Under the pieces are notes generated by a model, which made no database searches, had not been told where the DNA came from, and saw nothing but the letters and a program-made list of their open reading frames with translations. A DNA stretch of 64,000 bases. Origin: Rheinheimera sp. D18. GTDB taxonomy: Bacteria > Pseudomonadota > Gammaproteobacteria > Enterobacterales > Alteromonadaceae. Shown piece by piece: positions 31,734-46,894 of the stretch (its first letter is position 1; every line of letters begins with the position of its first letter). The stretch lies in NCBI RefSeq assembly GCF_004345025.1, contig NZ_CP037745.1, forward strand, positions 1,550,001-1,614,000, given 5' to 3'. The translations under genes were made by a program, and so were the position numbers.

Positions 31734-31755
31734 CCCTGCGCTCAAAGGAGCGTAA

Positions 31756-32823
31756 GTGCAAGTACAGCAACTAAACAAAGATAACGCAGGTCAACTCGGT
31801 ATGGCTGGCCAGCGTTACTGCGTAGGTATTATTGGTGCCGGCAGTGTTGGTTGTTATTTAGGCGCATATCTTTGCCAAGACGTTGCACTTGATGTTAAGT
31901 TTTTTGGCCGAGAGACCACCGCGCTAGAGTTAGCGGCGTATGGATTAACGGCCAGTTCGTATAACGCACCCAGCCAATTTGCGCAGCCGGTAGCGTTTTA
32001 TAGCTTACTTAATAGCTTAATTGAATGTGATGTTGTGCTATTAACCGTAAAAACCACGGCATTAATTCCGATGCTAGCAGAGCTAAAACGCTTTTTACGC
32101 CCAGAAGTACCTATTGTTGCACTGCAAAATGGCATAGGTATTGGTGAAATGCTCAATCAAGACTTAGCCAACCCAATACTAAGAGCCATCGTATCTTTTA
32201 ATGTAGTGAAAAATGGACGAGGTCAGTTTCATCGTGCTACATCAGGTAGTATCGTCTGGCAAAGTAATACGCATAACGTCGTTAATTACCTTATTAACGT
32301 ATTTAATCGCTTAAATTTACCCGTAGAATCTTGTACTGATATTACAGCAGCTGAATACGGAAAATTATTACTTAATTTAAATAATGCCCTTAACGCTATT
32401 AGTGGTTTACCCCTAAAGCAGCAATTGCTTGATAAAAACTATCGCTTATTACTGTCGCGCGCCATGCAGGAATGGTTAGCAATCTGTGATAAAGCCCAAA
32501 TTACGCCAATACCTTATACACGTTTAGCGAATAACTTGATACCTTGGTTATTACGCTTGCCAACGCCGCTGTTTCGTATTCTTGCGAAAAGTATGTTAAC
32601 GCTAGATCCGCAAGCGCGCTCATCAATGTGGGATGATTTACAGGCAAAAAAACGTACTGAAATTATGTTTTTAAACGGCTCGGTAGTTAGATTGGGCATT
32701 GACCATAAGCAAGCAACGCCAGTAAATTCACTACTGGTCGACTATATAAAACGCTTGGAAAGTGGCGAGCCACTGCAGCTGAACGCAATTGAGATATTAC
32801 GCCAGCTACAGCAAAGTGAGTAA
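31756..32823 (+). CDS. Ketopantoate reductase family (PanE/ApbA-like) protein
   Basis: A 355-aa NADP-dependent reductase of the PanE/ApbA family. The Rossmann motif is IIGAGSVGCYLGAYL at about 25-39. The family catalytic Lys segment is EYGKLLLNLNNALNAISG and NADP contacts include VKTTAL and ALQNGIG. It starts at GTG 31756 with AAGGAG at 31745-31750. The family makes pantoate from ketopantoate, but paralogues of this length act on other 2-oxo acids, so I do not use panE. It sits behind class II DAHP synthase, and its 3' end is followed 17 bp later by an IS5-type element. Confidence 0.82.
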   Translation: MQVQQLNKDNAGQLGMAGQRYCVGIIGAGSVGCYLGAYLCQDVALDVKFFGRETTALELAAYGLTASSYNAPSQFAQPVAFYSLLNSLIECDVVLLTVKTTALIPMLAELKRFLRPEVPIVALQNGIGIGEMLNQDLANPILRAIVSFNVVKNGRGQFHRATSGSIVWQSNTHNVVNYLINVFNRLNLPVESCTDITAAEYGKLLLNLNNALNAISGLPLKQQLLDKNYRLLLSRAMQEWLAICDKAQITPIPYTRLANNLIPWLLRLPTPLFRILAKSMLTLDPQARSSMWDDLQAKKRTEIMFLNGSVVRLGIDHKQATPVNSLLVDYIKRLESGEPLQLNAIEILRQLQQSE

Positions 32824-32840
32824 CCTCTGTTAAATACCTA

Positions 32841-33719
32841 GGGCTTGTTGATCTTTCGTGATGGATTATTAGACAGCATGATGGGCTGGTATAATTACTT
32901 TCGCCAAAAACTAACCATGACAACCCATCATGCCAAGAACAATGTTAACAGACGAGTACTGGTCAAAGCTAATCAGATTGATGCTTAAAACGGGCCGCGT
33001 ATATGACAAGCCGGAACACAGAAATACTTTCGAAGGCATTTTGTATCGGATGCGGGTCGGTTGCCCTTGGCGCGATGTGCCAGAAGCTTTTGGAGATTGG
33101 AGCGCCATCTACCGGCGTTTTAACCTGTGGTCTAAGAAAGGCATTCTAATGCAGCTATTCGCAGAGTTAAGGCAATTGGCTGATTTAGAGTGGGAATTTA
33201 TAGACGGCAGCATCGTCAAAGCGCATCAGCATGCGACAGGTGCTCGCTCAGAAGATAAAGAAGCGATTGGGAAAAGTCGTGGTGGTAACACGACGAAAAT
33301 CCATATGGCAGTGGATAGTTGCGGCTTGCCAATAGATTTTATTGTGACAGGCGGTGAGGTTCATGACAGTAAAGCAGCCATAGAATTACTAAAACAACTG
33401 CCTGATGCCGAACACGTTATCGCTGACCGGGGCTATGATAGCGAGAAGATACGAGAGCAGATCCGAGAAAAAAAGGGCGTCCCTAACATACCGCGCAAGC
33501 GTAATTCGAAGATTGGTAATGGCGATATTGACTGGTGTCTGTACAAATATCGCCATCTGGTTGAGAACGTGTTTGCCAGGCTAAAACATTACCGCTCAGT
33601 AGCAACAAGGTATGATAAATTAGCCCGGAATTATGCAAGTACACTGGCCTTGGCTTGCTGCCTTATATGGCTGCCAATGTGGGTTGGCTAAATTATAAAC
33701 AGCAAAGATCAACAGGCCC
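32841..33719 (+). mobile_element. IS5-family insertion sequence, complete
   Basis: An 879-bp element with imperfect terminal repeats: GGGCTTGTTGATCTTT at 32841-32856 and the complement of GGGCCTGTTGATCTTT at 33704-33719. It is flanked by a TA duplication (32839-32840 and 33720-33721) within a CTAG target, as usual for IS427/IS5-type elements. It contains one intact transposase. Its right end abuts the stop codon of ppsR. Confidence 0.9.
32930..33691 (+). CDS. IS5-family DDE transposase
   Basis: A 253-aa intact single-frame transposase. An N-terminal helix-turn-helix-like DUF4096 region (LTDEYWSKLIRLM to RRFNLWSKKG) is followed by the DDE core. The acidic triad is visible as Asp in EFIDGSIVKAHQH, Asp in VIADRGYDSEKIR and Glu in LVENVFARLKHYR. 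Many IS427-group elements split this gene over a frameshift; here it is continuous, so the element is probably active. The start ATG is MPRTMLTDEYW; another ATG lies four codons further on. Confidence 0.92.
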   Translation: MPRTMLTDEYWSKLIRLMLKTGRVYDKPEHRNTFEGILYRMRVGCPWRDVPEAFGDWSAIYRRFNLWSKKGILMQLFAELRQLADLEWEFIDGSIVKAHQHATGARSEDKEAIGKSRGGNTTKIHMAVDSCGLPIDFIVTGGEVHDSKAAIELLKQLPDAEHVIADRGYDSEKIREQIREKKGVPNIPRKRNSKIGNGDIDWCLYKYRHLVENVFARLKHYRSVATRYDKLARNYASTLALACCLIWLPMWVG

Positions 33720-34528
33720 TAGTATTTACGCCGTTTTAAGCCGGTTTTCGCAATAATTTTTGCTGAAATTTCTTCAATAGATAAATGGGTTGAATTTAAA
33801 AATGGAATGTGTTCCTGCTGATATAAGCGCTCTACTTCGTTAAGTTCAAGTTGGCATTGTCGCAACGATGCGTAACGGCTATTTGCTCGGCGTTGTTCTC
33901 GAATATGGTGTAGTCGTTCTGGGGTAATGGTTAAACCAAATAACTTGTTTTTGTTACGTTTTAAAACCTCAGGCAGACGCAGTTGCTCCATATCTTCTTC
34001 AACAAAGGGGTAATTCGCAGCTTTAATACCATATTGCAGTGCTAAATATAAACTGGTTGGTGTTTTACCAGAGCGACTTACGCCAATAAGAATAATATCA
34101 GCTTGATCATAGTTTTTAAGGTTTGAACCATCATCATTTGCTAGCGCATAGTTTACTGCGTCAATACGAAAGTCATAGGTTTGTTCATGAATACTATGTG
34201 TACGGTGAGTTTTGGGTACAGGGTCAACGCCTAATTCACGCTGTACGGGTTCAATAAAACTATGCAGAAAATCGTAACAGACACCATTACTATGGTTAAT
34301 TATTTGCCGTAAATTGTCGTCAACAAAGGTTTGAAAAATAAGCGGGCGCTCTCCTGTAGTTTTATAACGATCGTTAATGCGTTGCTTTACTTGTTCTGCC
34401 ATCTCTGCTGTTTCGACAAAAGGAATGGTTACATGCTCAAATTTAGTAGGAAAAAGAGTAAGTAAGGCTTGGCCAAATACTTCTGCGGTAATAGCCGTGC
34501 CATCTGAAATATAAAAGGCTGTGCGCAC
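33719..34528 (-). CDS. ppsR: PEP synthase regulatory protein (bifunctional kinase/pyrophosphorylase)
   Basis: Controls PEP synthase by ADP-dependent phosphorylation of an active-site Thr and by Pi-dependent removal of that phosphate. The 269-aa DUF299 protein has [20 protein letters not shown] at the N-terminus and the P-loop [14 protein letters not shown] near 150-163. It is divergent from ppsA, as in many Gammaproteobacteria. The stop TAG is formed at the IS5 border: its last base is the final base of the element, but the same TAG existed in the uninterrupted CTAG target, so the protein is unchanged. Its downstream region has been replaced by the IS. Confidence 0.95.
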
Positions 34529-34544
34529 GAGTGCTCCGTTTTGT

Positions 34545-34559
34545 TGTTATTAAATTACA
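34545..34559. promoter_or_regulatory. Candidate HexR operator in the ppsR/ppsA promoter region
   Basis: TGTTATTAAATTACA differs at one position from the palindromic HexR consensus described for Shewanella (TGTARTWWWAYTACA). It lies between divergent ppsR and ppsA, about 105 bp before the ppsA start. ppsA is a known HexR target in Shewanella. This is a match to a remembered consensus, not a scored search. Confidence 0.55.
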
Positions 34560-34664
34560 TTGAAAATTAAGGTTTTAATTCTCATGAGTGCCAGTGTAAA
34601 ATCGGTATTACTGTAGTGCTAACTGTAAGCTTACACGCCACACGACAAAAAATGGAGATTAACT

Positions 34665-37040
34665 GTGCAAGAATTTGTGATTTGGTATGAAAATCTTGGA
34701 ATGCATGATGTAAACCGCGTGGGCGGAAAAAACGCATCTTTAGGCGAAATGATCAGTAATTTGGCCAATGCAGGAGTACAAGTACCGGGCGGCTTTGCTA
34801 CTAGCGCTTATGCTTTCAACCAATTTCTTGAGCAAAGCGGCGTTAACGAGCGTATTTACCAGCTGCTAGATGGCTTAGATGTTGACGATATTCCAGCACT
34901 AAGCAAAGCGGGCGCACAAATTCGGCAATGGGTTATTGATACTCCATTTCAGCCGGAATTAGAGCACGCTATTCGCGAAGCCTATCAGAAATTACACCCT
35001 GATGCGGCGCACGATGTGTCGTTTGCGGTGCGTTCATCAGCAACTGCCGAAGACATGCCAGATGCCTCTTTTGCTGGTCAGCAAGAAACGTTCTTAAACG
35101 TACGTGGTTATGATGCGGTTATTATCGCGATTAAACACGTATTTGCCTCATTGTTTAACGACCGTGCTATTTCTTATCGTGTGCATCAAGGTTACGACCA
35201 CCGTGGCGTTGCGCTGTCTGCTGGCGTACAAAAAATGGTGCGTTCAGATTTATCCTCATCTGGCGTAATGTTTAGTATTGATACCGAATCAGGTTTTGAA
35301 GATGTGGTGTTTATTACCTCATCTTATGGTTTAGGTGAAATGGTGGTGCAGGGCGCAGTTAACCCTGACGAATTTTATGTACATAAGCCAACCTTAGCGG
35401 CCGGTCGCCCAGCTATTGTAAAACGTAATTTAGGCAGCAAAAAAATAGAAATGATTTACTCTGGCGAGCAAGGCCATGGTAAACAAGTAAAAATTGTTGA
35501 TATTGAAGACACGCGTAGCCGTCAGTTTTCATTAACTGACGCCGAAGTTGAAGAGCTAGCTAAACAAGCGGTAACTATTGCCAAGCACTATGGCCGTGCC
35601 ATGGACATTGAATGGGCAAAAGATGGTAACGACGGCAAGCTTTATATTGTACAAGCGCGGCCAGAAACAGTACGCAGCCGTGAAGACAGCAACACCATGG
35701 AGCGTTTTCAGCTAGAAGGCACAGCAGCAATTTTAGTTGAAGGCCGTGCTATTGGTCAGCGTATTGGTAGTGGTACCGCTAAAGTGCTTAAAGGCATTGA
35801 GCAAATGGACCAAATTCAACCGGGCGATGTGTTAGTTACCGATATGACTGATCCTGACTGGGAACCGATAATGAAGCGCGCGTCGGCCATTGTTACTAAT
35901 CGTGGCGGCCGTACTTGTCATGCGGCAATTATTGCCCGTGAATTAGGTATTCCGGCGATTGTTGGTTGTGGTGATGCGACCAGTAAAATTAAAACTGGCC
36001 AGCAAATTACGGTGTCTTGTGCGGAAGGTGATACCGGTTTTGTTTACGATGCCAAACTAGATTATAAAATTGTTAGCAGCCGCATTGATCAAATGCCTAA
36101 GCTAGATTTAAAAATAATGATGAACGTGGGTAACCCAGAGCGGGCATTCTCGTTTGCTAAGTTGCCACATGCCGGTATAGGTTTAGCGCGTTTAGAATTT
36201 ATTATTAACCGCATGATTGGCGTGCACCCTAAAGCGCTTTTAAACTTCGACGCGCAAACACCTGAGCTTAAGGCCACTATTAACGAGATGATAGCCGGCT
36301 ACGCCAGCCCAGTAGAATTTTACATTGCTAAGCTAACGGAAGGCATTGCCACGCTGGCCTGTGCCTTTGCGCCAGAAAAAGTTATTGTGCGGATGTCAGA
36401 TTTTAAATCGAACGAATACGCTAACTTAGTGGGCGGCCGTCAGTATGAGCCGCATGAAGAAAACCCAATGATTGGCTTTCGTGGTGCTGCACGGTATATT
36501 TCACAAGATTTCCGTGATTGTTTTGCACTTGAAGTTGAAGCGTTAAAACGGGTACGTAACGTTATGGGCTTTACCAACATTGAGGTGATGATCCCATTCG
36601 TGCGTACCTTAGAAGAGGCCAGCGCAGTAATTGATCTATTAGCTGAACATGGTTTAAAACGCGGCGATAACGGCCTGCGTGTGATTATGATGTGTGAATT
36701 ACCGTCAAACGCGTTATTAGCCGAAGAGTTTTTAGAGTATTTCGATGGTTTCTCTATCGGCTCTAACGACTTAACTCAGCTAACACTGGGTTTAGACCGT
36801 GACAGCGGCCTAATTGCGCACTTGTTTGATGAACGTAATCCAGCCATTTATAAATTATTAGAAATGGCCATTAAAACCTGTAAAGCCAAAGGTAAATATA
36901 TCGGTATTTGTGGCCAAGGCCCTTCAGATCACGAAGACTTTGCCGCCTGGTTAATGCAACAGGGCATAGATAGCGTATCGTTAAACCCCGATACCGTATT
37001 AGAAACTTGGCTGTATTTGGCTGAAAAATACGGTAAGTAA
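34665..37040 (+). CDS. ppsA: Phosphoenolpyruvate synthase
   Basis: Converts pyruvate and ATP to PEP, AMP and phosphate, the entry to gluconeogenesis. The 791-aa protein has the N-terminal ATP-grasp domain ([33 protein letters not shown]), the swivelling phosphohistidine domain ([23 protein letters not shown]; the Thr before Cys-His is the PpsR target) and the C-terminal PEP barrel ([28 protein letters not shown]). Length matches E. coli (792). The start is GTG 34665 with GGAGA at 34652-34656. It is divergent from ppsR and has a strong terminator. A 12-bp palindrome TGTAAGCTTACA sits 30 bp before the start. Confidence 0.97.
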
Positions 37041-37063
37041 TGAATATTACTCAGCGTTAAAAG

Positions 37064-37096
37064 AAAGCCAGAGCCTATGCTCTGGCTTTTTTGTTT
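37064..37096 (+). terminator. Rho-independent terminator after ppsA
   Basis: AAAGCCAGAGC (37064-37074) pairs perfectly with GCTCTGGCTTT (37079-37089) over a 4-nt loop, followed by TTTGTTTTT. It also faces selO on the other strand. Confidence 0.9.
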
Positions 37097-37118
37097 TTAC
37101 CAATCTACCTTTTGCAGC

Positions 37119-38591
37119 TTACGTACCACAAAAAGTATTAGCAATGCATTGCTCGGCGTTGGGTGCTAAGCCTAAATCCGCATTGGCTTTAGCTAAAGTA
37201 AAAGGGGTAGCCAACGCCTTATGTAAGCGATTAAACAGCGTTAAATCGCCTTGTGCTGTTGCCTGCTCAATGGCGTTCGCAATTTGATGGTTACGGGCAA
37301 TAACCGCTGGATTAGTGCTATCCATCTGCTGTTGCACCTCGGTAGCGTTTATTGCTTGTTCCGCCAGCCGCAGTTGCCAGCGCTCAGCCCAGCTTTGCCA
37401 AGCTTGTTTATCGCCAAATAGCTGCGCAGCGCCGACATTTATGTCGCTAACCGATTGGCTTAATAACCGAAATGCTAGCGTAAAATCGGCTTTGTCTTCA
37501 CTCATTAAATGTAAATAATCGCGTATTAACACCTCATCCGCTGCAGTGGCCTGCTGTAACCCTATTTTAGCTGCCATTAACTGCAAAAATGCGGTTTCAT
37601 TAAGCGTGCTAAATTTCTGTAATACCGCGGTTGCTTCGGCCACCGCCAGCTCTTGCTGTGGGTTTATCAGCGGCAATAAACACTCTGTCAAGCGCGCTAA
37701 ATTCCAGCTGCCTATGCGCGGTTGGTTACCCCAAGCGTAACGGCCTTGTTTATCGATAAAACTAAACACTTGTGCTGGGTTAAAGCTATCCATAAAGGCA
37801 CAGGGGCCATAATCAATGGTTTCGCCGGCAATGCTCATATTGTCGGTATTCATTACGCCGTGAATAAACCCCAAACTCATCCATTTGGCAATTAGGTTGG
37901 CTTGTGCCTCTACCACGCTTTCTAATAATGCTAAGTAGGGCGTATTACTTGCCGCACAGTGTGGATAATGCCGGTTAATAACATAGTCGGCAAAGGTTTT
38001 TAACTGCTCAATATCGCCATGTTCAGCAATATATTGAAAACTACCAATACGAATATGGCTTTTAGCAACACGAGTAATAATAGCACCGGGCTCTGCCGTG
38101 TCACGTTGCAGCCAGTCACCGGTTAATACCGCAGCCAGCGCTCGGGTAGTGGGTACGCCTAACGCGTGCATCGCTTCGCTAACCAAATATTCGCGCAGCA
38201 CTGGGCCTAATGGCGCTCGGCCATCGCCACGGCGCGAAAACGGTGTGCGGCCAGCGCCTTTTAGCTGGATATCAAAGCGCTGGCCGGTTTCATCTAATAC
38301 TTCAGCCAATAGCAAGGCTCGGCCATCGCCTAATTGCGGTACAAAATGGCCAAATTGGTGGCCAGCATACGCATGCGCTGCCGACTGCACCCAATCAGGT
38401 AAGTTATTACCACTAAATAAAGCTAAGCCGGTATCGGTTTGCCAATAGTGTTTAGGTAAGGCTAATTGCGCAGCAAGTTCAGTATTAAAGGCAATCCACT
38501 GTGGTGCAGGCACACTAGTAGGTAAACAGGCTTGGCTATAAGGCGCGCCTAAACGTACCAAGCTATTATCAACCGTAAATTCACTCATCAA
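37119..38591 (-). CDS. selO: Protein adenylyltransferase SelO
   Basis: Pseudokinase-fold enzyme that transfers AMP to Ser, Thr and Tyr of proteins, linked to redox control. The 490-aa protein has AGHQFGHFVPQLGDGRALLL, the QLKGAGRTPFSRRGDGRAPLG block that binds ATP inverted, VMNTDNMSIAGETIDYGPCAFMD with the metal ligands, and NPAVIARNHQI at the C-terminus. The protein ends FCGT: a Cys three residues from the end takes the place of the selenocysteine of eukaryotic SelO. No in-frame UGA is needed. Start is one of two adjacent ATGs (38591 or 38588). It is divergent from the MOSC gene. Confidence 0.95.
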   Translation of the reverse strand: MMSEFTVDNSLVRLGAPYSQACLPTSVPAPQWIAFNTELAAQLALPKHYWQTDTGLALFSGNNLPDWVQSAAHAYAGHQFGHFVPQLGDGRALLLAEVLDETGQRFDIQLKGAGRTPFSRRGDGRAPLGPVLREYLVSEAMHALGVPTTRALAAVLTGDWLQRDTAEPGAIITRVAKSHIRIGSFQYIAEHGDIEQLKTFADYVINRHYPHCAASNTPYLALLESVVEAQANLIAKWMSLGFIHGVMNTDNMSIAGETIDYGPCAFMDSFNPAQVFSFIDKQGRYAWGNQPRIGSWNLARLTECLLPLINPQQELAVAEATAVLQKFSTLNETAFLQLMAAKIGLQQATAADEVLIRDYLHLMSEDKADFTLAFRLLSQSVSDINVGAAQLFGDKQAWQSWAERWQLRLAEQAINATEVQQQMDSTNPAVIARNHQIANAIEQATAQGDLTLFNRLHKALATPFTLAKANADLGLAPNAEQCIANTFCGT

Positions 38592-38678
38592 AAAAGCCTA
38601 GTTATAATGCAATGACCTACAGTGTACTGTGTGGGTATACTAGACACCAAATACTGCGTTAGTTTATTAGGTTATTTA

Positions 38679-39362
38679 ATGACAACACATTACCTTAACG
38701 GCGTTTATTGCGGCAAAATCGCCACACGCTATGGCATTCAAACTGCGATAGATAAACACGGCGTTGAGCAAAGCTTATATTTATCTTTACACGGCTTAGC
38801 AGAGGATGAGTCGGCAGATCCTAAGCATCATGGTGGGCCAGAGCGTGCTCTGCATCAGTATCCGTTAGAGCATTATGCCTACTGGCAACAACAATACCCG
38901 AGCATTAATTGGCAAATACCGGGCATGGGAGAAAACATTAGCTCTATTGGTATGACCGAGCATAACGTTTACTTAGGCGACCGTTACCAATGGGGCGATG
39001 CCATTATAGAGGTAAGCCAGCCGCGCTCACCATGTTATAAGCTGAATAAACGCTGGGGTAACGCGAATATTTCCCTAGATATGCAGCAAAGTGGCCACTG
39101 TGGTTGGTTATATCGGGTTATTCAGCCAGGTACGGTAAGCGTTTCACAACCGTTGATTTTGCAGCAACGTTTAGCAAATGCCCTGAGTGTGGCAAAAACC
39201 AGTCAGCTATTTTTTACTGATCCGCTAAACCCAGAGCATTTAGCCTTATTAAAACAGCAAACCACTTTGTCAGTAAGTTGGATGAGTAAAATAATGCTAC
39301 GCATAGAAACGCAGCAAGTAGAAAATTGGCATTTTCGTTTGCATGGCCCTGACGCTATTTAG
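38679..39362 (+). CDS. yiiM: MOSC domain protein YiiM
   Basis: A 227-aa molybdenum-cofactor-binding MOSC protein that resembles E. coli YiiM, a reductase of N-hydroxylated bases such as 6-N-hydroxylaminopurine. The MOSC core includes DPKHHGGPERALHQYPLEHY, PGMGENISSIGMTE and SQPRSPCYKLNKRWG, whose Cys is the expected Mo ligand. A C-terminal 3-helix extension follows. I chose ATG 38679 (MTTHYLNGVYCG); an upstream in-frame ATG at 38622 adds 19 residues absent from the family. The electron-transfer partner is not next to it. Confidence 0.88.
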   Translation: MTTHYLNGVYCGKIATRYGIQTAIDKHGVEQSLYLSLHGLAEDESADPKHHGGPERALHQYPLEHYAYWQQQYPSINWQIPGMGENISSIGMTEHNVYLGDRYQWGDAIIEVSQPRSPCYKLNKRWGNANISLDMQQSGHCGWLYRVIQPGTVSVSQPLILQQRLANALSVAKTSQLFFTDPLNPEHLALLKQQTTLSVSWMSKIMLRIETQQVENWHFRLHGPDAI

Positions 39363-39386
39363 GCGTATTTAAGCTGGGCTTACCGG

Positions 39387-40277
39387 CTAAAACGCATGCT
39401 TGCGCACCTCATCTAAATTTGCCACCACTATTTGTTGTGCTTCGGGGCGGGCTTCTATTTTGGTTAAATCTAAATTTAATGCCTGCACCGCATAGGGGAT
39501 CAAGGCCGAGCGCACTGGGATCACGCGTTTACCCTGTGTCATATTGTAATCATCGGCAATAATGGTTTGCTGGTAAGCAGATAAACGCGAGTCGGGCACC
39601 AGTATAATATCAACCAAGGTATTCCAGCGTGTATCCTCTGCTTTAGTCATCTGTGCGCTACCTTCAATGTGGTTAATGCTGCGAAAACGGCTGAGCACAA
39701 AATCACGATAATCGCGGTTTTTCTCACAATATGCACGTACATGCCAACGCAGTGGTGTGCATACCAGTGTGTGCGGCGCAATAATTCGACTTTCTTCATC
39801 AGGCGAAGTAAGTGACACATAACCCATATCAATTTTGTTGCCATCTCTGGCAGCTTGCACAAGTGCGCGTAAAATATCGGGGTTTACCTGCCGCACTGGC
39901 GTATTCAGCATTTCAGTATGGGCAAAGCCTAAATCAAGTTGGCTAAAGGTATGAGCGAAGTCTTTAGTGCTTGCCAACGCATGCAAATATTCATCGGCTA
40001 AGCCACTGGTTACCTTGGGCGAAAAATGGCTTGCAGGTTTGTAACCCCGTAACTTGCTGTCATACACCAGATTGTCTGGCGCAACATCACGCAAATAGGC
40101 ATTAATATCTTTAGAGGCCTGCTGGCGGGCAATGCCAAAGCTGTTACATAAATGCTTAGTGGTTAAGCGGCCTTCCCACAGTGCAACAATTTCAATTAGC
40201 CGATAGCGCATCAGTAGCTCCCAGCGCAGCGGCCAACCTTGCTCCTCGTTTTCGCTAACATCATGTGTATTATTCAT
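39387..40277 (-). CDS. WYL-domain transcriptional regulator, BrxR/CapW-like
   Basis: A 296-aa regulator with the layout of the BrxR/CapW group: N-terminal winged helix (RWELLMRYRLIEIVALWEG then LTTKHLCNSFGIARQQASKDINAYL), a WYL domain whose core reads TPLRWHVRAYCEKNRDYRDFVLSRF (WHV in place of WYL, as common in this group), and a C-terminal WCX-like region. Relatives repress phage-defence loci such as BREX and CBASS and bind imperfect inverted repeats near their own gene; two such repeats lie upstream here. I chose ATG 40277 with AAAGGTAACG before it; longer in-frame starts exist. No BREX or CBASS genes are present, so it is an orphan. The ligand is unknown. Confidence 0.85.
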   Translation of the reverse strand: MNNTHDVSENEEQGWPLRWELLMRYRLIEIVALWEGRLTTKHLCNSFGIARQQASKDINAYLRDVAPDNLVYDSKLRGYKPASHFSPKVTSGLADEYLHALASTKDFAHTFSQLDLGFAHTEMLNTPVRQVNPDILRALVQAARDGNKIDMGYVSLTSPDEESRIIAPHTLVCTPLRWHVRAYCEKNRDYRDFVLSRFRSINHIEGSAQMTKAEDTRWNTLVDIILVPDSRLSAYQQTIIADDYNMTQGKRVIPVRSALIPYAVQALNLDLTKIEARPEAQQIVVANLDEVRKHAF

Positions 40278-40303
40278 CGTTACCTTTGCGCTTATCTGTA
40301 GCC

Positions 40304-40324
40304 AAAGCGTACGCATGTTACGCT
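40304..40324. promoter_or_regulatory. Inverted repeat near the WYL regulator start, candidate operator
   Basis: AAGCGTA (40304-40310) and TACGCTT (40318-40324) form perfect 7-bp arms around 7 bases, about 27 bp before the WYL gene start. The related sequence AAGCGTACACTGAATACTT begins at 40424. Autoregulation is inferred from the BrxR/CapW pattern. Confidence 0.4.
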
Positions 40325-40423
40325 TGGTGTAGTCGTTTATTAGGTTACCAGTAGGTTTAAAGTTAAAGCAAAGCCAACCATAACAAAACAACAATTTTCA
40401 TCCAGCCCTTTGATGTGAATGAA

Positions 40424-40450
40424 AAGCGTACACTGAATACTTGCACAGTA
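40424..40450. promoter_or_regulatory. Second copy of AAGCGTAC-type motif with imperfect inverted repeat
   Basis: AAGCGTAC (40424-40431) repeats the first 8 bases of the 40304 site exactly, with TAC again at the same spacing (40438-40440). An overlapping imperfect repeat TACacTG-N8-CAcaGTA covers 40429-40450. It lies midway between the WYL gene and the 103-aa gene and could serve both promoters. Confidence 0.3.
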
Positions 40451-40513
40451 TGGCGTGAATTTAGAAACAACCTAAGATGTATAGCAACGGATGACCTGTC
40501 GCCGATAGTTACA

Positions 40514-40555
40514 GTAAATAGATGACAATAAATAGGTGACAGTAAATGGACAACG
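40514..40555. repeat. Three tandem 14-bp imperfect direct repeats
   Basis: GTAAATAGATGACA (40514-40527), ATAAATAGGTGACA (40528-40541) and the weaker GTAAATGGACAACG (40542-40555) lie head to tail. Copies 1 and 2 share 12 of 14 bases. They sit 64 bp before the 103-aa gene in the 341-bp gap 40278-40618, which otherwise holds only the inverted repeats and no gene. They may be a regulator-binding array. Confidence 0.6.
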
Positions 40556-40618
40556 CTACCGGACGTAGCGAACAGGGAAATGGACAAACAGGCACGGATG
40601 CCAACTTAGGAGACCAAG

Positions 40619-40930
40619 ATGAACTACTTACAGCGCGAGTTATTTTTAATTACCCTACACCAGCAATTTACTGACATGTTTCTGGCTAGTAAAGCCGGTA
40701 AAGATAACGCTGAACAAAAGCTACGCAGCCAAGGCTTTATTCATGCCGGCGAATTGCTAGAGCTATGCAGCCGCCAGGAAGTGCAGCAACTTATGGAACA
40801 AGTGCACCACGAAGTATTCGGCGTCAGCATTGCCGAGCGTAAGCCAAAAGAGCAAACCCGTCGCCAACAGGCGTTAAAGCTGGGTGATTATGATTACTTT
40901 GACGAACCAGCCTTTAACCGGCTTCGCTAA
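40619..40930 (+). CDS. Hypothetical protein, 103 aa
   Basis: I do not recognise this protein. It is soluble, probably mainly helical, with a charged C-terminus (ERKPKEQTRRQQALKLGDYDYFDEPAFNRLR). There is no signal peptide, membrane segment or metal motif. GGAG at 40609-40612 gives a strong ribosome site for ATG 40619, and the reading frame fills the space, so it is probably real. It is divergent from the WYL regulator and starts just after the tandem 14-bp repeats, and the NYN/LOTUS gene follows about 80 bp later on the same strand. Its role is unknown. Confidence 0.65.
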   Translation: MNYLQRELFLITLHQQFTDMFLASKAGKDNAEQKLRSQGFIHAGELLELCSRQEVQQLMEQVHHEVFGVSIAERKPKEQTRRQQALKLGDYDYFDEPAFNRLR

Positions 40931-41011
40931 TGCTTGTTATTAGAAGTTGCAAAGAAAATCTTGCTGCTCTAAAGTCGGAACAAATGCCGTGTGCAGTTAA
41001 GGATAACGAAA

Positions 41012-41755
41012 TTGAAAGATAAGGAAAAAATCGCCGTTTTTATTGATGCTGACAACGCGCCTGCGAATAAAATGGACAAGGTATTATCTGAGTTAGCCCG
41101 TTATGGCGTGGTCAATATCCGCAAGGCGTACGGCAACTGGAAAAGTGCCAAGCTAAAACCTTGGGAAGATATACTGCACGACTTTGCAATACAGCCAATT
41201 CAGCAATTTGATTTAACCAAAGGTAAAAACGCCACTGACATGGCATTGGTTATCGATGTGATGGATGTGCTTTATACCAAAAACGTTGATGTTATCTGCC
41301 TGGTATCGTCTGATTGTGATTTCACCCCTTTAGTTACCCGTGCCTTAGCTGATGGCAAATTTGTTATCGGCTTTGGCGAGCGTAAAGCCCCGTTGGCCTT
41401 TGTAAACAGTTGTTCGCGTTTTCTCTATCTGGATGAGCCTGAAGCCTTGTCAGTGCCGGTGCAAAAAGCCACCAGCAATATCAAGAGTGATACCAAGCTT
41501 ATTAATCTTCTACGCCAGGCTATAGAGGCGGTGGAGGAGGAGGAAGGCTGGGCAATGCTTGGTCCTATCGGCTCGCATATTTCCAATCATGCTTCTTTTG
41601 ATCAGCGTAATTACGGCTTTAAAAAACTTAGTGACTTGTTTATGGCAATCGATCTTTTTGAAATGCGTAAAACCAATGGATCAGTGCTTTGGGTCAGGGA
41701 TAAAAAACGTTCAAAAAACTTCGTTAGGCCAAGTATTTCGAATAATGAAAATTAG
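41012..41755 (+). CDS. NYN-domain nuclease-like protein with C-terminal LOTUS/OST-HTH domain
   Basis: A 247-aa protein. Residues 5-145 form a NYN (PIN-like, LabA-type) domain with the acidic residues in VFIDADNAP, KNATDMALVIDVMD and LVSSDCDFTPLV, where an RNase active site is expected. Residues 165-240 (INLLRQAIEAVEEEEGWAMLGPIGSHI to GSVLWVRDK) match an OST-HTH/LOTUS fold, which binds RNA, including G-quadruplexes in some members. I prefer TTG 41012 because AAGGA lies at 40999-41003; GTG 40991 is also in frame. It follows the 103-aa gene and ends before IS3-family debris. RNA cleavage is inferred from the fold. Confidence 0.85.
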   Translation: MKDKEKIAVFIDADNAPANKMDKVLSELARYGVVNIRKAYGNWKSAKLKPWEDILHDFAIQPIQQFDLTKGKNATDMALVIDVMDVLYTKNVDVICLVSSDCDFTPLVTRALADGKFVIGFGERKAPLAFVNSCSRFLYLDEPEALSVPVQKATSNIKSDTKLINLLRQAIEAVEEEEGWAMLGPIGSHISNHASFDQRNYGFKKLSDLFMAIDLFEMRKTNGSVLWVRDKKRSKNFVRPSISNNEN

Positions 41756-41805
41756 CCAGGCTCCTATATATGAAATTTGCAAAATTTTGGGTAGATCAAA
41801 AAGTG

Positions 41806-41913
41806 ATCCGTACCAACACTTTTGGACACTTTGCTAAGCGAGTACAATCGCTTAACGAGGTGAATAATGTCAACAAAGAAAATCCGCAAAACACATACCG
41901 CTGAATTTTGTTC
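41806..41913 (+). mobile_element. Remnant of the left end of a second IS3-family element
   Basis: ATG 41867, with an AGG ribosome site, begins MSTKKIRKTHTAEF, a typical IS3-family OrfA N-terminus, and then runs into the left end of another IS at about 41909-41914. Upstream, TTTTGGACACTTT near 41819-41831 looks like part of its terminal repeat. The left limit at 41806 is approximate. The rest of the element is missing. Confidence 0.6.
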
Positions 41914-41916
41914 TGG

Positions 41917-42729
41917 TCAAGTCCAACCGGACACTTTCCTAAAGGAGTTTTCATACTCAATGGGTGATTGGTCGCCATTCGACGAATGTAATCGCTCCAG
42001 ATTGTAATATTTCACATATGCCGAAACATCTTGCTTCATATGCTCTCTTGTTGGTTGTGCTACCTTGAACAACCAATCATGTTTTAAACTGCCGAAGAAC
42101 CTTTCAACCACGGCATTATCCCAACACGCACCGACGTCACCCTTGCTAGAGCGGCAATCAAGCCGTTTTAATAGGCTTCTAAAGCGTTTACTCGTGTATT
42201 GCGAGCCTCTATCGCTATGAAATACTAAGCCCCTTGGCGGCTGTCGTAAGCGATGTGCTTTTAAAAATGCCTGCTCAATTAAGTCTGTCGTCATACGTTT
42301 TGATGTGTGCCAACCCACTATGCGACGACCAAATAAATCCATTACAATAGCAAGGTATAGCCAGCCTTCGCCTGTTTTTAAATATGACACATCCCCAGCC
42401 CACACCTGATTTGGGCCTAACGGGTTAAAATTCATGTTCAATAAATTATCCGCTACAGCATCACTGTATTTGCGCTTTGTTGTGACTTTGTAAGCGATAC
42501 GCTGCTTAACGACTAAACCCAATCGTTTCATCAAGCCAATGACACGATGCCGGCTAACATCAAAGCCTTCTTTACGAAGCTTTTTCCCAAGCTCACGGCT
42601 ACCCAGACTGTCTCGACTATCTTCAAAAAGCGCCTTCGCCCTACGATGTAAATTCAGTGTTTGTGCACTGATAATTATCGCGGGACGTTTTCGCCAAGCA
42701 TAGTATGCAGATTTGCTAACGCGCATCAC
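41917..42729 (-). CDS. IS3-family transposase OrfB (DDE integrase domain)
   Basis: A 270-aa product from the internal ATG, with an HTH_21 region (HRRAKALFEDSRDSLGSRELGKKL) and an rve integrase core: Asp in VWAGDVSYLKTGEG, Asp in FHSDRGSQYTSKRF and Glu in NAVVERFFGSLKHDW. The same frame is open upstream across the end of orfA (EIKYSFLKSLGKQYPVAISCKVMRVS), exactly in the -1 frame, so the natural product is probably an OrfAB fusion made by -1 frameshifting at the AAAAG run near the end of orfA. The stop lies in the left terminal repeat. Confidence 0.92.
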   Translation of the reverse strand: MMRVSKSAYYAWRKRPAIIISAQTLNLHRRAKALFEDSRDSLGSRELGKKLRKEGFDVSRHRVIGLMKRLGLVVKQRIAYKVTTKRKYSDAVADNLLNMNFNPLGPNQVWAGDVSYLKTGEGWLYLAIVMDLFGRRIVGWHTSKRMTTDLIEQAFLKAHRLRQPPRGLVFHSDRGSQYTSKRFRSLLKRLDCRSSKGDVGACWDNAVVERFFGSLKHDWLFKVAQPTREHMKQDVSAYVKYYNLERLHSSNGDQSPIEYENSFRKVSGWT

Positions 42730-42785
42730 TTTACACGATATGGCAACTGGGTACTGCTTACCTAAACTTTTGAGAAATGAATATT

Positions 42786-43073
42786 TTATTTCATTTCTTT
42801 TGCGAAAAACGCTGAAGCCTTTTTTAATATTTCGCGCTCCATTAGCAAGCGTTTATTGTCTTTTCTGAGCTGAACGAGTTCAGCCCGCTCATCCTTCGAC
42901 AACTCTGAATCTTCATCTTGTTGTTTAAACTTCGCTACCCAGTTATAAAGTAGCTTATCAGTGATATTCAGTGAGGCGGCAGCCTCAACAACTGAGTAAC
43001 CTTGCTCAATCACCAGCGCCACCGCTTCTTGCTTAAAATCGTTTGGATATTGTTTGTTAGTACGTTTAGTCAT
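42786..43073 (-). CDS. IS3-family transposase OrfA (HTH)
   Basis: A 95-aa DNA-binding subunit from ATG 43073, preceded by GAGG. It has a helix-turn-helix (YPNDFKQEAVALVIEQGYSVVEAAASLNI) and a C-terminal leucine-zipper-like helix (ELVQLRKDNKRLLMEREILKKASAFFAK). It ends at TAA in a region where the orfB frame is already open, as usual in IS3 elements. The gene is intact. Confidence 0.9.
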   Translation of the reverse strand: MTKRTNKQYPNDFKQEAVALVIEQGYSVVEAAASLNITDKLLYNWVAKFKQQDEDSELSKDERAELVQLRKDNKRLLMEREILKKASAFFAKEMK

Positions 43074-43131
43074 TTTATACCTCAATAATTGGATATTATC
43101 CTTTATTGAAGTGTCCGGCTAATTCAACCAC

Positions 43132-43821
43132 AACAAAACTCAAAAGGTGTTGATTAAGGTGCATCCTGATCAACGTGTGGTTGCAACCGCCCCCAAAGAA
43201 GCCAGCGAGCAAGCAATCCATGAAGCCATGCTAAAACGCGCAAGGTGGATTTGGCAAAATCTACAATCGTTCGCTGAACAAAAAAATCACGTGCTACCTA
43301 AGCGTTATATCAGTGGCGAAAGCCAATTTTACTTAGGCAGACGCTATGTGCTTAAAGTGATATCAGATCCTGAGCAAGTTATGTCGGTTAAGCTAAGCCG
43401 AGGCAAGTTAAACGTGGTACTGCGACAAGACAGTAGCGGCATGACAGAGCAACAGCGAGCCAGCAAAGTTAAACCCTTAATTGATAATTGGTATCAACAA
43501 AAAGCCAAAGCGATATTCCACGAGCGATTAAATGAACTACTGCCCAAAGCAACATGGGTAACCGGCATTCCCTCATTTCGTATAATGGCAATGAAAAAAC
43601 AATGGGGCAGCTGCTCAGCGAAAGGCAACTTAATACTAAACCCGCATTTAGTAAAAGCCCCCAAAGAATGCATAGACTACGTAATACTGCACGAGCTTTG
43701 CCATATTGCCGAACACAACCACAGCGAACGCTTTTGGCGCTTACTCACCCAAGTAATGCCTAACTGGAAAGCCGTTAAAGATAAGCTTGATGGCATGGCA
43801 GAGCAGTATTTGAATGAGTGA
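43132..43821 (+). pseudogene. 5'-truncated YgjP-like (DUF45) zinc metallopeptidase
   Basis: The open frame starts right at the right border of the IS3 element (N-K-T-Q-K then VLIKVHPDQRVVATAP) and runs to 43821. It keeps most of the DUF45/SprT-like domain, including the zinc motif HELCHIAEHNHSERFW and the preceding MKKQWGSCSAKGNL. Family members begin with a short segment before the KxxxIxVxPDGxVxVxAP strand; that segment is missing here and is not found to the left of the IS. A GTG at 43147 could still start a 224-aa protein, so partial function is possible. Relatives often sit beside type I restriction genes. Confidence 0.75.
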
Positions 43822-43937
43822 ACATAAGCAAAGTTTTTCTACGGTCATCACTGGCAGGATAGGTTGAGTAGGGGATTTACTTGTAAAGCTTGTTTTAGTT
43901 CAACTTTGTCACAAAACCGCACCCGTTAAAATCACCG

Positions 43938-44086
43938 CCTTAAAAGCCCCTCAATAGCATAAGTTATTAATTACTATGCGTATTTAGTGAGAATTAGCTA
44001 TTGTATTTAATGTCTATTAAGGGCAATTAAAGTATTATTTTGTCACAGAATTCTGTGACAATGCTTTATGGTTGGGGCTTTTAAGG
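43938..44086. repeat. 149-bp segment bounded by 13-bp perfect inverted repeats
   Basis: CCTTAAAAGCCCC (43938-43950) is the exact reverse complement of GGGGCTTTTAAGG (44074-44086). The segment encloses a 22-bp perfect palindrome and no gene. The 427-bp gap 43822-44248 contains these repeats, four TTTGTCACA motifs and a tRNA terminator, but no convincing coding sequence. Confidence 0.8.
44040..44061. repeat. 22-bp perfect palindrome with TTTGTCACA motif family
   Basis: TTGTCACAGAA (44040-44050) is followed directly by its reverse complement TTCTGTGACAA (44051-44061). TTTGTCACA also occurs at 43905-43913, 44039-44047, 44151-44159 and 44162-44170, all in the same orientation. It could be a strong dimeric-protein site, but I cannot name the factor. 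Confidence 0.8.
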
Positions 44087-44190
44087 TAAAGGTCAAAAAA
44101 CAGCTTTTATGGGGAAAAATAAAAATTAGAATTTTGAAACACTGGAAAATTTTGTCACAGATTTGTCACAGAATGACGAATTTCAGGCAT

Positions 44191-44213
44191 AAAAAATTCC
44201 CATTAAAGGGAAT
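44191..44213 (-). terminator. Terminator of the initiator tRNA locus
   Basis: On the minus strand ATTCCC, a 6-nt loop and GGGAAT are followed by a run of T (plus-strand AAAAAATTCCC at 44191-44201 with GGGAAT at 44208-44213). It lies 36 bp after the tRNA 3' end. Confidence 0.75.
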
Positions 44214-44248
44214 GCTTTATTTTTCAATGATTTATGAATCTTGAAAGT

Positions 44249-44325
<77 letters not shown>

Positions 44326-44410
44326 TCCGTATATTACCCTTGAGCAGTGAAGGTAATAGTTTGATTTGCAAGACGTTAATTGATGACCTTTTGAATAAAC
44401 AAGTCACAAT

Positions 44411-44470
44411 TGGTTGCGTAAGCTTGGGGTTAGACCTTCGCCTCGTGGTTATAAAGAGGAGCCCGAGGGC
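44411..44470 (-). other. Possible decayed tRNA-fMet fragment between the two intact copies
   Basis: TGGTTGCG at 44411-44418 equals the 3' end of both intact tRNA genes. It is followed at tRNA-like spacing by TTAGACC, GGTTAT and GCCCGAGGGC, which partly echo the T arm, anticodon arm and stem. The rest does not fold as a tRNA. A chance resemblance is possible. Confidence 0.3.
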
Positions 44471-44498
44471 TTGCTAAATAATCACTACACACTCAATT

Positions 44499-44575
<77 letters not shown>

Positions 44576-44593
44576 TCCGTCACTGCGGGGCGC

Positions 44594-44622
44594 ATATTAG
44601 GGCTTTTGCTTTAAACACGCAA
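44594..44622 (-). promoter_or_regulatory. Promoter of the initiator tRNA genes
   Basis: Minus-strand TTGCGT (44617-44622) and TAATAT (44594-44599) are separated by exactly 17 bp and followed by a GC-rich discriminator (GCGCCCCGC), typical of stringently controlled stable-RNA promoters. Confidence 0.7.
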
Positions 44623-44779
44623 GCACTTAAAGTGGTTTATTTCACATTAGCCGTTCAACCGCTGCTTTATTAAACAAAGCGCGATTTAATACAACAATTT
44701 GGCCGGTGTGTAAAAACTCAAACGTATAAATACTACATTCTGCTATACTAAGCGCCATTTTTGATAAGGGTTGGGTAGC

Positions 44780-46894
44780 ATGCTGGAATTCTGGGCGTTA
44801 ACGTCTAAAGGGGTAGAAGAACTGTTGGCTGATGAGATCCGTCAACACGGTGGCGAAGTTATAAAAGTAACCATGGGAGTAGTGCGTTTTAGTGCTGAAC
44901 TGCGCACGGCGTATCAGTTGTGCTTGTGGTCTCGTTTGGCTACCCGAATTTTGCGTCTTATTCAGTCTGAGCCGATAACGGCAGACAGTGATATCTACCA
45001 AGTAGCCAGTAAAATTGACTGGCCGCAGCATATGTCGCTACGTAATAGTTTAGCGGTAGAGTGCGTTGGTAAACACCCGAAAATAGATAATACCCAGTTT
45101 GGCGCTATTCGTCTAAAAGATGCGATTGTTGATCAGTTTCGTGAAGAAACCGGCAACCGTCCAGATGTCGACCGTATGGACCCTGATGTACGTTTCCAAG
45201 TGCGCTTAGATAAACAGCATTTTCACTTTTTACAAGACTTTTCTGGCCCATCGCTACATCAGCGCGGTTATCGCAGCGGGCAAGGTGAAGCACCATTAAA
45301 AGAACACTTAGCCGCAGCGTTATTGAAACGCTCAGGTTGGCAGGTTGAGCAACCGTTATTTGACCCGTTTTGTGGTAGCGGCACTATTGTTATTGAAGCG
45401 GCGTTAATCGCGCAAAATAAAGCACCGGGTTTAACCCGTGAAAAATTTGCATTTATTGGTTGGCCTGGCCATCGCGATGCCACGTGGCAACAGTTAAAAC
45501 AAGAAGCAGTGGTTGCAGAACGTAGTTTGCCGGAAAAGGTACAATTTTGGGGCTCTGATTTTGATGAACGTAGCTTAGCCAAAGCCAAACAAAATGCGGC
45601 ACGGGCCGGTGTTAGTGCTTTAGTGCAGTTTGACTATGCCGATGCCACCGCCTTAAAGGCTGCGGTTAGTAGTGTTGCCGGTGTTATTGTAACTAACCCG
45701 CCGTACGGCGAGCGTTTAGGTGATTTACCATCACTTATACCGCTATATAGTAAGTTTTCGTTAGCGTTAAAACAGCATTATCAAGGTTGGCGCTTAGCTA
45801 TTATCACCTCAAATGCTGATTTACTGCGTGCGCTTCGTTTATCAAAAAGTAAAACCTATAAATTTACTAACGGTCCGTTAGATTGTGAATTTACGCTGTT
45901 TGATTTAACCGAAAAGCAAGTCGCGGTGAGCTCTGATGCACCAGCACTGTTTTATAGCGAAAGTAGCTCTTTTGGTAATAGGTTAGCGAAAAACCTTAAA
46001 CAATTACAAAAATGGGCCAATAAAGAAGGCCTGAACTGCTATCGCTTATACGACGCTGATATTCCTGAATATAACGTGGCGGTAGATTGGTACGACGGCG
46101 AAGTAGTGGTGCACGAATATGCGGCTCCGGCTACGGTAGATGAGCAGGTATCACAAAAGCGTTTATTTGACGTGGTAAACCAAGTACCACAAGTGCTGGG
46201 TATTAACTCAGATAAAATGATTTTAAAGGTTCGAGAAAAACAAAAGGGTACTTCACAGTATCAGGCCAATGATAAAGTGGGCCGTTATAAAGAAGTTAGC
46301 GAATATGGCGCTAAGTTTTTAGTAAACTTACGCGATTATCTTGATACCGGCTTATTTTTAGATCACCGTATTACTCGGCGGATGATCCAGCAGCAGGCAA
46401 AAGGCAAAACGGTATTAAACTTATTTGCTTACACCGGCACGGCATCGGTACATGCGGCTATTGGCGGCGCAGCAAGTGTCACTACAGTAGACATGTCAAA
46501 TACTTACCTTGATTGGGCTAAGCGCAACTTTACACTTAATGGTTTAGCCGGCAAGCAATACCAGTTTGAACAAGCCGATTGTTTGCAATGGTTAAGCCGT
46601 TGCCGTAATCAGTTTGAATTGATTTTTGTTGACCCACCAACCTTTTCAAATTCAAAACGGATGCAAGATAACTGGGATGTGCAGCGTGATCACGTGATGC
46701 TAATTAATATGCTAACGCCGCGCTTAGCGCCTGGCGGCAAGGTTATATTTTCTAACAACAAACGCCGCTTTAAAATTGATACTCAGGCATTAAACGATGC
46801 GGGTTGGCAAGTTAAAGATATTTCTGCAGCAACCTTACCTGAAGATTATAAACGTAACCCCAATATTCACGTTTGTTTTGAGTTAACCCGTTAA
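44780..46894 (+). CDS. rlmL: Bifunctional 23S rRNA methyltransferase RlmKL
   Basis: Makes m2G2445 (RlmL half) and m7G2069 (RlmK half) in 23S rRNA. The protein of 704 aa matches the E. coli size (702). A THUMP domain (about 45-155) precedes the first methyltransferase, with DPFCGSGTIVIEAA and the NPPY motif IVTNPPYGERLGD. The second methyltransferase has LNLFAYTGTASVHAA and FVDPPTFSNSKRM. ATG 44780 with AAGGG at 44766-44770 is preferred over the in-frame TTG 44771. A glutaredoxin-like gene and uup follow without gaps, an order seen in related genomes. Confidence 0.97.
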   Translation: MLEFWALTSKGVEELLADEIRQHGGEVIKVTMGVVRFSAELRTAYQLCLWSRLATRILRLIQSEPITADSDIYQVASKIDWPQHMSLRNSLAVECVGKHPKIDNTQFGAIRLKDAIVDQFREETGNRPDVDRMDPDVRFQVRLDKQHFHFLQDFSGPSLHQRGYRSGQGEAPLKEHLAAALLKRSGWQVEQPLFDPFCGSGTIVIEAALIAQNKAPGLTREKFAFIGWPGHRDATWQQLKQEAVVAERSLPEKVQFWGSDFDERSLAKAKQNAARAGVSALVQFDYADATALKAAVSSVAGVIVTNPPYGERLGDLPSLIPLYSKFSLALKQHYQGWRLAIITSNADLLRALRLSKSKTYKFTNGPLDCEFTLFDLTEKQVAVSSDAPALFYSESSSFGNRLAKNLKQLQKWANKEGLNCYRLYDADIPEYNVAVDWYDGEVVVHEYAAPATVDEQVSQKRLFDVVNQVPQVLGINSDKMILKVREKQKGTSQYQANDKVGRYKEVSEYGAKFLVNLRDYLDTGLFLDHRITRRMIQQQAKGKTVLNLFAYTGTASVHAAIGGAASVTTVDMSNTYLDWAKRNFTLNGLAGKQYQFEQADCLQWLSRCRNQFELIFVDPPTFSNSKRMQDNWDVQRDHVMLINMLTPRLAPGGKVIFSNNKRRFKIDTQALNDAGWQVKDISAATLPEDYKRNPNIHVCFELTR

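Follow-up and report, generated by a model that had tools for sequence, protein, structure and literature searches.

A BrxR/CapW-type regulator, a promoter element and a small helical protein as the probable header of an exchangeable defence slot carrying a NYN-LOTUS gene in Rheinheimera sp. D18

We analysed a window of 64,000 nucleotides from Rheinheimera sp. D18 (NZ_CP037745.1, positions 1,550,001 to 1,614,000; coordinates below count from its first letter) and concentrated on three genes at 39387-41755: a WYL-domain regulator, a divergently transcribed gene for a 103-aa protein (P103), and a gene for a protein combining a NYN nuclease domain with an OST-HTH/LOTUS domain (NYN-LOTUS). We propose that the regulator, the promoter region and P103 form a header of the BrxR/CapW type with exchangeable cargo, and that NYN-LOTUS is its present cargo, acting in defence by cutting RNA. 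We assign this joint reading a probability of about 0.6, its weakest part being the effector step. That the locus is an exchangeable defence slot under BrxR/CapW control appears, as an inference of its own, quite probable; that NYN-LOTUS is an RNA-cutting defence protein under WYL control we place at slightly below even odds. The regulator family, the conservation of the header, the exchange of cargo, the linkage of the NYN gene and the remnant state of the locus are all read from sequence comparison.

The regulator gene (39387-40277, reverse strand) lies within an open reading frame (ORF) at 39387-40394(-) whose probable start codon is the ATG at 40277. Its 296-aa product matched BrxR (7t8k; phmmer 9e-56, residues 19-289 of 296 aligned) and CapW (7tb6; phmmer 2.8e-38, residues 16-293 aligned), a full-length wHTH-WYL-WCX match to solved members, and the Pfam WYL domain was found at 1e-12. 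All five residues taken from a passage of PMC9122588, the proposed ligand-site residues Y145, R183, F185 and R189 of CapW plus the key tryptophan W170, are identical in the aligned regulator (5/5). By these matches the protein is a WYL repressor of the BrxR/CapW family, as the initial annotation had suggested. That annotation had also called the regulator an orphan, which proved wrong, since relatives carry this regulator at the head of defence loci. BrxR homologues are described beside diverse defence systems (48% of homologues) in a section of PMC9122601, and an excerpt of PMC13373217 describes repression by CapW/BrxR until single-stranded DNA (ssDNA) binds. By analogy with these proteins, we infer that the Rheinheimera regulator may repress and be released by ssDNA. 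A second, broken WYL copy lies elsewhere in the same genome (C1:2822838-2823682, L081), adjoining DdmD and DdmE genes.

The header, consisting of the WYL gene, an element of about 80 bp and the divergent P103 gene, recurs in Arsukibacterium, Alishewanella, Rheinheimera and Alkalimonas. P103 homologues were found in 35 of 147 genomes of the family. A separate genome scan with P103 gave 35 loci, 21 in which P103 is at least 62% identical to the window protein and 14 in which it is at most 51% identical. An intact divergent WYL gene was present at 16 of the 21 closer loci, broken copies at two (L116 and L119), and none was seen in the flanks of the other three. The 16 intact copies are 77-87% identical to the window regulator; at L111 the WYL gene lies 6.6 kb from P103, and at the remaining loci the distance is 2.7 kb or less. 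These 16 loci plus L185 give 17 header loci, with the window not counted and identical records counted once (L113 = L076, L114 = L074, L116 = L077).

The conserved non-coding element in the shared promoter region (40420-40502), a putative operator region, was matched at 16 of the 17 header loci, that is, at L185 and at 15 of the 16 loci from the P103 scan (74-85% identity to the window). At L105-L108, L110, L111 and L124 the alignment continues from the element through P103 at 69-75% identity, and elsewhere the element forms a separate block. Shorter matches of 39-49 bp were found at L116, L117, L119 and L122. Its best conserved inverted repeat, an imperfect one at 40427-40452 (9-bp arms, 8-bp spacer), is a candidate site for a WYL dimer. 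The arms pair at 0.73 over 20 aligned sequences, a value reached in none of 500 column shuffles (95th percentile, 0.65). The repeat arrays first annotated in this promoter hold up in part: a 14-bp unit is present in 2.6 tandem copies at 40511-40547 (Tandem Repeats Finder (TRF) score 60, and repeat search), but the array is modest and the main feature is the element, which had gone unnamed. A small ORF spanning the element (cluster c3) was considered and rejected; in-frame stops occur in 6 of 20 sequences and there is no codon-position bias, so the element is not a small ORF. Two loci carry a second copy of the element (L104:5758-5857 and 7898-7957; L109:6460-6541 and 15629-15722), and one repressor may thus control more than one promoter.

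What follows P103 varies from locus to locus. At 13 of the 17 header loci a gene of defence type lies within 5 kb behind P103 on the P103 strand. Assignments were made mainly with PADLOC models, and Mrr was assigned by Pfam and protein clusters. The cargo includes Gabija at L106 (GajA 3e-272, GajB 3e-247), type I restriction endonuclease (REase) genes at L107 (1e-263) and L111 (E=0), MZA at L110 (MzaA 3e-59, MzaB 7e-181, MzaC 1e-304), a type IV REase at L120 (6e-221), Ssp at L185 (SspC E=0, SspD 4e-108), a partial AbiEii at L112 (2e-60) and HsdM at L114. L108 carries an Mrr-type endonuclease (Pfam Mrr_cat 1.4e-32) from a cluster common to L104, L105, L118 and L124, the last of which also carries Shedu (SduA 1e-160). 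The WYL proteins of L112, L114, L118 and L120 are 98-99% alike and the cargo differs. Such near-identical headers with different cargo in related species indicate that header and cargo exchange separately. The regulator also heads loci lacking P103: a type I REase locus at L075, which retains 53 bp from the 3' end of P103, and DdmD/DdmE loci at L081, the broken copy described above, and at L078 (DdmE there by cluster only). By these comparisons WYL and P103 are the conserved unit and the NYN gene is the exchangeable part. The divergent unit thus lies in a defence-gene slot, judged by the cargo in relatives, as the initial annotation had supposed.

Further small proteins were observed near the header. 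A second type, cluster c2 ('WRYADL' type, 92-112 aa in most loci), lies beside WYL, between WYL and P103 or behind, at L104-L108, L110, L112, L113, L115, L118, L120 and L124; the L105 and L112 copies matched no Pfam family, and the window has no called copy between its WYL gene and P103. A third type was seen near P103 at L104:5970-6230 and L114:8200-8571 (both cluster c57) and, by eye, at L185:8791-9060, and the L185 copy matched no Pfam family. At four Alishewanella loci with a short element match and a broken or missing WYL gene (L116, L117, L119 and L122), P103 precedes a sirtuin-like gene (cluster c11, by eye).

P103 is encoded at 40619-40930 on the forward strand as the first gene of the divergent unit. 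It had been described as unrecognised, and this held in the databases, where no significant family was found in Pfam, NCBIfam, PADLOC or PHROGs (best 0.05); nevertheless, by alignment, it is a real, conserved protein family. R36, G39, F67, P97 and R101 are invariant in 23 aligned sequences. The AlphaFold2 model, with a predicted local distance difference test score (pLDDT) of 86 and a predicted template modelling score (pTM) of 0.66, is a small helical protein of three main helices with a weak tail. Searches with the model, effectively of residues 1-75 only, found no informative relative: the best Foldseek hits had E 2.2 in the PDB and 0.29 in BFVD, and the best VIA hit (Z 8.8) was to an unrelated helical protein, uninformative for function. 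The P103 profile found nothing among sequences of solved structures (best E 0.91), and phage and plasmid records held no match at E 0.01.

Since P103 remains with WYL and the operator where the cargo is exchanged, it is most likely a partner of the regulator; feedback on, or licensing of, expression is our guess at its role. It is not essential, since some WYL-headed loci lack it. The alternative that P103 belongs to the immune output, as an adaptor or small effector for many defence systems and not as a helper of the regulator, we consider somewhat unlikely. P103 would then be expected where we find it, as the first gene of a divergent unit before very different defence systems, and at L017 it is flanked by an integrase-like and an HsdR-like gene (both read by eye), and the 1.5 kb on either side gave no WYL match. 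Its absence from WYL-headed type I REase and DdmDE loci speaks against an output role, as does its position beside housekeeping-type genes in other genomes: among the 14 loci with distant members, 10 place P103 next to asnS (5) or ndh (5), genes read by eye. In genome G049, a P103 at 38% identity directly adjoins a WYL gene at 42%, in the same direction and near an integrase-like gene (G049:C1:5178094-5179247; L019, L089). This distant pair counts against a sharp identity border for the pairing of WYL with P103, and the two genes may have come together before the present header arose.

The third gene (41012-41755, forward strand) encodes a NYN domain at residues 7-142 (Pfam 1.9e-41) and an OST-HTH/LOTUS domain at residues 160-227 (6.6e-17), which confirms the assignment made from the sequence at the outset. 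Relatives start near MKDKEK, so the likely start is the TTG at 41012 and not the GTG at 40991. Six acidic residues, D13, D15, D77, D83, D102 and D104, are invariant in 12 aligned NYN-LOTUS sequences, and we take them to be the catalytic residues of the NYN domain. In the structure database the OST-HTH part matched PDB 2kzv and 2kpm and the NYN part matched 2qip. RNA cutting by this protein is what its domain families would predict. The protein also matched phrog_37744, a group of unknown function, at 1.5e-53, and relatives of NYN-LOTUS thus occur in viruses of bacteria or archaea.

The linkage of this gene to the header is supported by remnants. At L104, L105, L108, L118 and L124 P103 is followed by the same leader and the first 9-11 NYN codons, after which the sequences diverge into an Mrr gene. 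The remnant peptide is unchanged at L105 and L124 and carries substitutions at L104, L108 and L118. The same codons begin the NYN-LOTUS gene of G023, which has no nearby P103, and they are therefore NYN's own. These remnants indicate that the linkage of P103 with NYN is older than this genome, and the five loci, which share the Mrr gene, may descend from one event. Furthermore, in G088 no more than 1 kb separates P103 from a NYN-LOTUS pseudogene, and in G134 P103 is followed after about 150 bp by a different NYN gene; P103 lies within 1 kb of a NYN gene in 3 of 35 genomes, the query included.

We also weighed whether NYN-LOTUS serves general RNA processing on its own and landed behind P103 by chance, outside WYL control and defence, and judge this improbable. 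Its sporadic distribution (37 of 147 family genomes, weak partial matches included, and none of the 5 other genus genomes of the sample) would fit such a gene, and at 20 NYN-LOTUS loci flanks of about 8 kb showed neither a WYL nor a P103 homologue. A portion of PMC2848206 on bacterial LK-nuclease/OST-HTH proteins likewise reports that these are not consistently linked to other known RNA-processing systems and suggests that the enzyme acts alone. The 5' remnants behind P103 at five other loci, the G088 pseudogene and the G134 gene argue otherwise, as do defence-type neighbours seen when 10 hand-picked proteins from 8 of the 20 loci were scanned. NYN-LOTUS lies directly upstream of HsdM (MTase_I 5e-247) at L155, with a Dsr1-like SIR2 gene two genes on, and one gene from an Mrr-like gene at L156. 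Weaker defence-like matches occur at L150 (LmuA 2e-18) and L151 (PDC-M60A 1e-24); matches at L145 were no better than 2e-4, and the proteins scanned at L154, L161 and L163 gave none. Both L161 and L163 have a similar-looking trio of genes (64-72, 179-183 and 624-673 aa) near NYN-LOTUS, two members of which were scanned and had no PADLOC match. At L162, in G082, it lies between genes for DAHP synthase and PSRP, followed by PPDK (by eye), and this neighbourhood matches the window at 30384-37040, a few kb to the left of the locus.

The right flank records the loss of neighbouring genes. The IS debris and tRNA locus noted there at first are indeed present. A 107-bp fragment (41802-41908), 97-100% identical to two other sites in the same genome, is probably the end of another insertion sequence (IS). 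It is followed by an IS3-type element with approximate ends at 41913-43131 (reverse strand), between NYN and a broken ygjP gene, with transposase ORFs at 41917-43085, rve and HTH_Tnp_1 domains, end repeats read by eye and a partial 99% copy elsewhere in the genome. The ygjP-like metallopeptidase gene (43147-43821, forward strand; YgjP-like 6.6e-58) lacks about 50 N-terminal residues, and two tRNA-Met genes follow at 44249-44325 and 44499-44575. The window ygjP is 96% identical to the gene after HsdR in G479 (HsdR by PADLOC, E=0; HsdM in pieces and HsdS by eye), and HsdR-like genes precede ygjP by eye in G126 (L184) and G469 (L187). The DNA match of ygjP begins at 43134, adjoining the IS end. 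To its left the IS borders on the 107-bp fragment and NYN; the missing start of ygjP is not there, and no target duplication was apparent by eye. Reading the ORFs of 36000-46000 by eye, some of them also scanned against profiles, brought up no HsdR, HsdM or HsdS. The window ygjP thus probably closed a type I restriction operon that has been lost, and the flanks fit an IS-linked deletion of that operon between NYN and ygjP. Since the IS3-type element joins a truncated ygjP whose relative ends a type I operon, the locus appears to be a remnant, in agreement with the initial suggestion that it might be what is left of a larger one. NYN, the restriction genes and ygjP may once have formed one operon here. 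An empty insertion site was not found. The neighbouring MOSC gene has a close homologue (76%) in 1 of 30 other genomes of the genus, where a different gene follows, and distant ones (38-39%) in 3.

These flanks raise the alternative that the locus is a regulatory wreck, the type I restriction body gone and WYL, P103 and NYN decaying with no present defence role. The truncated ygjP at the IS end, the lack of recognisable hsdM, hsdS and hsdR among the nearby ORFs, and the broken WYL copies at L116, L119 and in the same genome are all as expected of a wreck. Yet WYL, P103, NYN and the promoter element are all intact, and the acidic residues of NYN and the ligand residues of WYL are kept, and we regard simple decay as rather unlikely.

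Several results weigh against the proposal of a header with NYN-LOTUS as its defence cargo. The promoter element had no match at header locus L123 or at the WYL copies of L078-L081 and L084-L086, the second WYL of the same genome among them. With the L108 copy as query, 196 family genomes yielded 6 sites, each next to a complete or broken WYL gene; the 4 genomes concerned belong to one genus, to which the element seems confined. The interval 40200-42000 gave no sigma-70-like promoter. P103 occurs without WYL at all 14 loci where its identity is at most 51%, and it is absent from the WYL-headed defence loci L075, L078 and L081. The correlation between WYL and P103 protein distances (r = 0.74, 0 of 5000 permutations, n=17, 16 loci plus the window) supports the header but may partly reflect species history. 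At four of the 17 header loci no defence gene stood out: L109 has a partial AAA match only, L113 one protein with no match, L115 was unscanned, and the contig of L123 ends about 1.2 kb behind P103. PADLOC-DB held no model matching NYN-LOTUS (best 0.01), and many NYN-LOTUS genes adjoin genes of ordinary appearance. The initial annotation had asked whether the three genes co-occur elsewhere and whether the divergent genes exist independently of the regulator. In the sets searched there was no further locus with WYL, P103 and an intact NYN gene, and the co-occurrence is borne out only to the extent that five loci keep the 5' end of NYN after P103. Independence is likewise partial: P103 lacks the regulator in its more distant relatives, and NYN-LOTUS mostly lacks it too.

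The reading we prefer, a BrxR/CapW header with NYN-LOTUS cargo, suggests the following sequence of events. NYN-LOTUS would be the surviving cargo of the window copy, a type I restriction system ending in ygjP having most likely been lost by IS-linked deletion. A WYL dimer would bind the candidate inverted repeat at 40427-40452 and keep transcription low. ssDNA arising from infection or DNA damage would bind the WYL domain and release the repressor, and P103 and NYN-LOTUS would then be made. The LOTUS domain would bind RNA and the NYN domain cut it, so that phage growth is blocked or the cell is stopped.

Parts of this arrangement resemble known systems. BrxR (7t8k) shares the near full-length sequence match, the position beside diverse defence systems and an inverted repeat in the promoter. 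The window WYL gene differs in being divergent to P103, and no BREX genes were recognised at the locus; the pEFER BrxR repeat given in a section of PMC9122601 has 11-bp arms and a 5-bp spacer, against 9-bp arms and an 8-bp spacer here. The CBASS-associated CapW (7tb6) shares the ligand-site residues and the tryptophan, but no CBASS genes were recognised at the window locus. The LK-nuclease (DUF88/NYN) plus OST-HTH proteins treated in part of PMC2848206 have the same two-domain architecture, whereas the window gene stands behind a defence-associated repressor, a promoter element and P103. CapK+CapS (PMC13373217) and RptR are also small regulator genes, placed before diverse immune operons and type I restriction systems, respectively. 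By its own domain searches and model, P103 differs in having no significant domain match and a helical bundle of no known family. Judged by titles and abstract openings, none of the papers listed in literature searches dealt with NYN-LOTUS in phage defence or with P103.

A bolder proposal, which we hold tentatively and consider possible but on balance doubtful, is that P103 acts in BrxR/CapW regulation as a partner not described before, and that NYN-LOTUS proteins, the bacterial relatives of germline MARF1/Limkain, make up a so far unrecognised branch of phage defence that cuts RNA and is reached through a portable header. BrxR/CapW regulators are known beside many defence systems, and the header bears on how one control unit serves many of them. 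It points to an unstudied small protein and promoter element. Bacterial NYN-LOTUS proteins, for which the 2010 paper PMC2848206 found no tie to other known RNA-processing systems, gain a possible defence context. If the bolder proposal is true, a genome would swap whole defence systems behind one phage-sensing switch made up of WYL, operator and P103.

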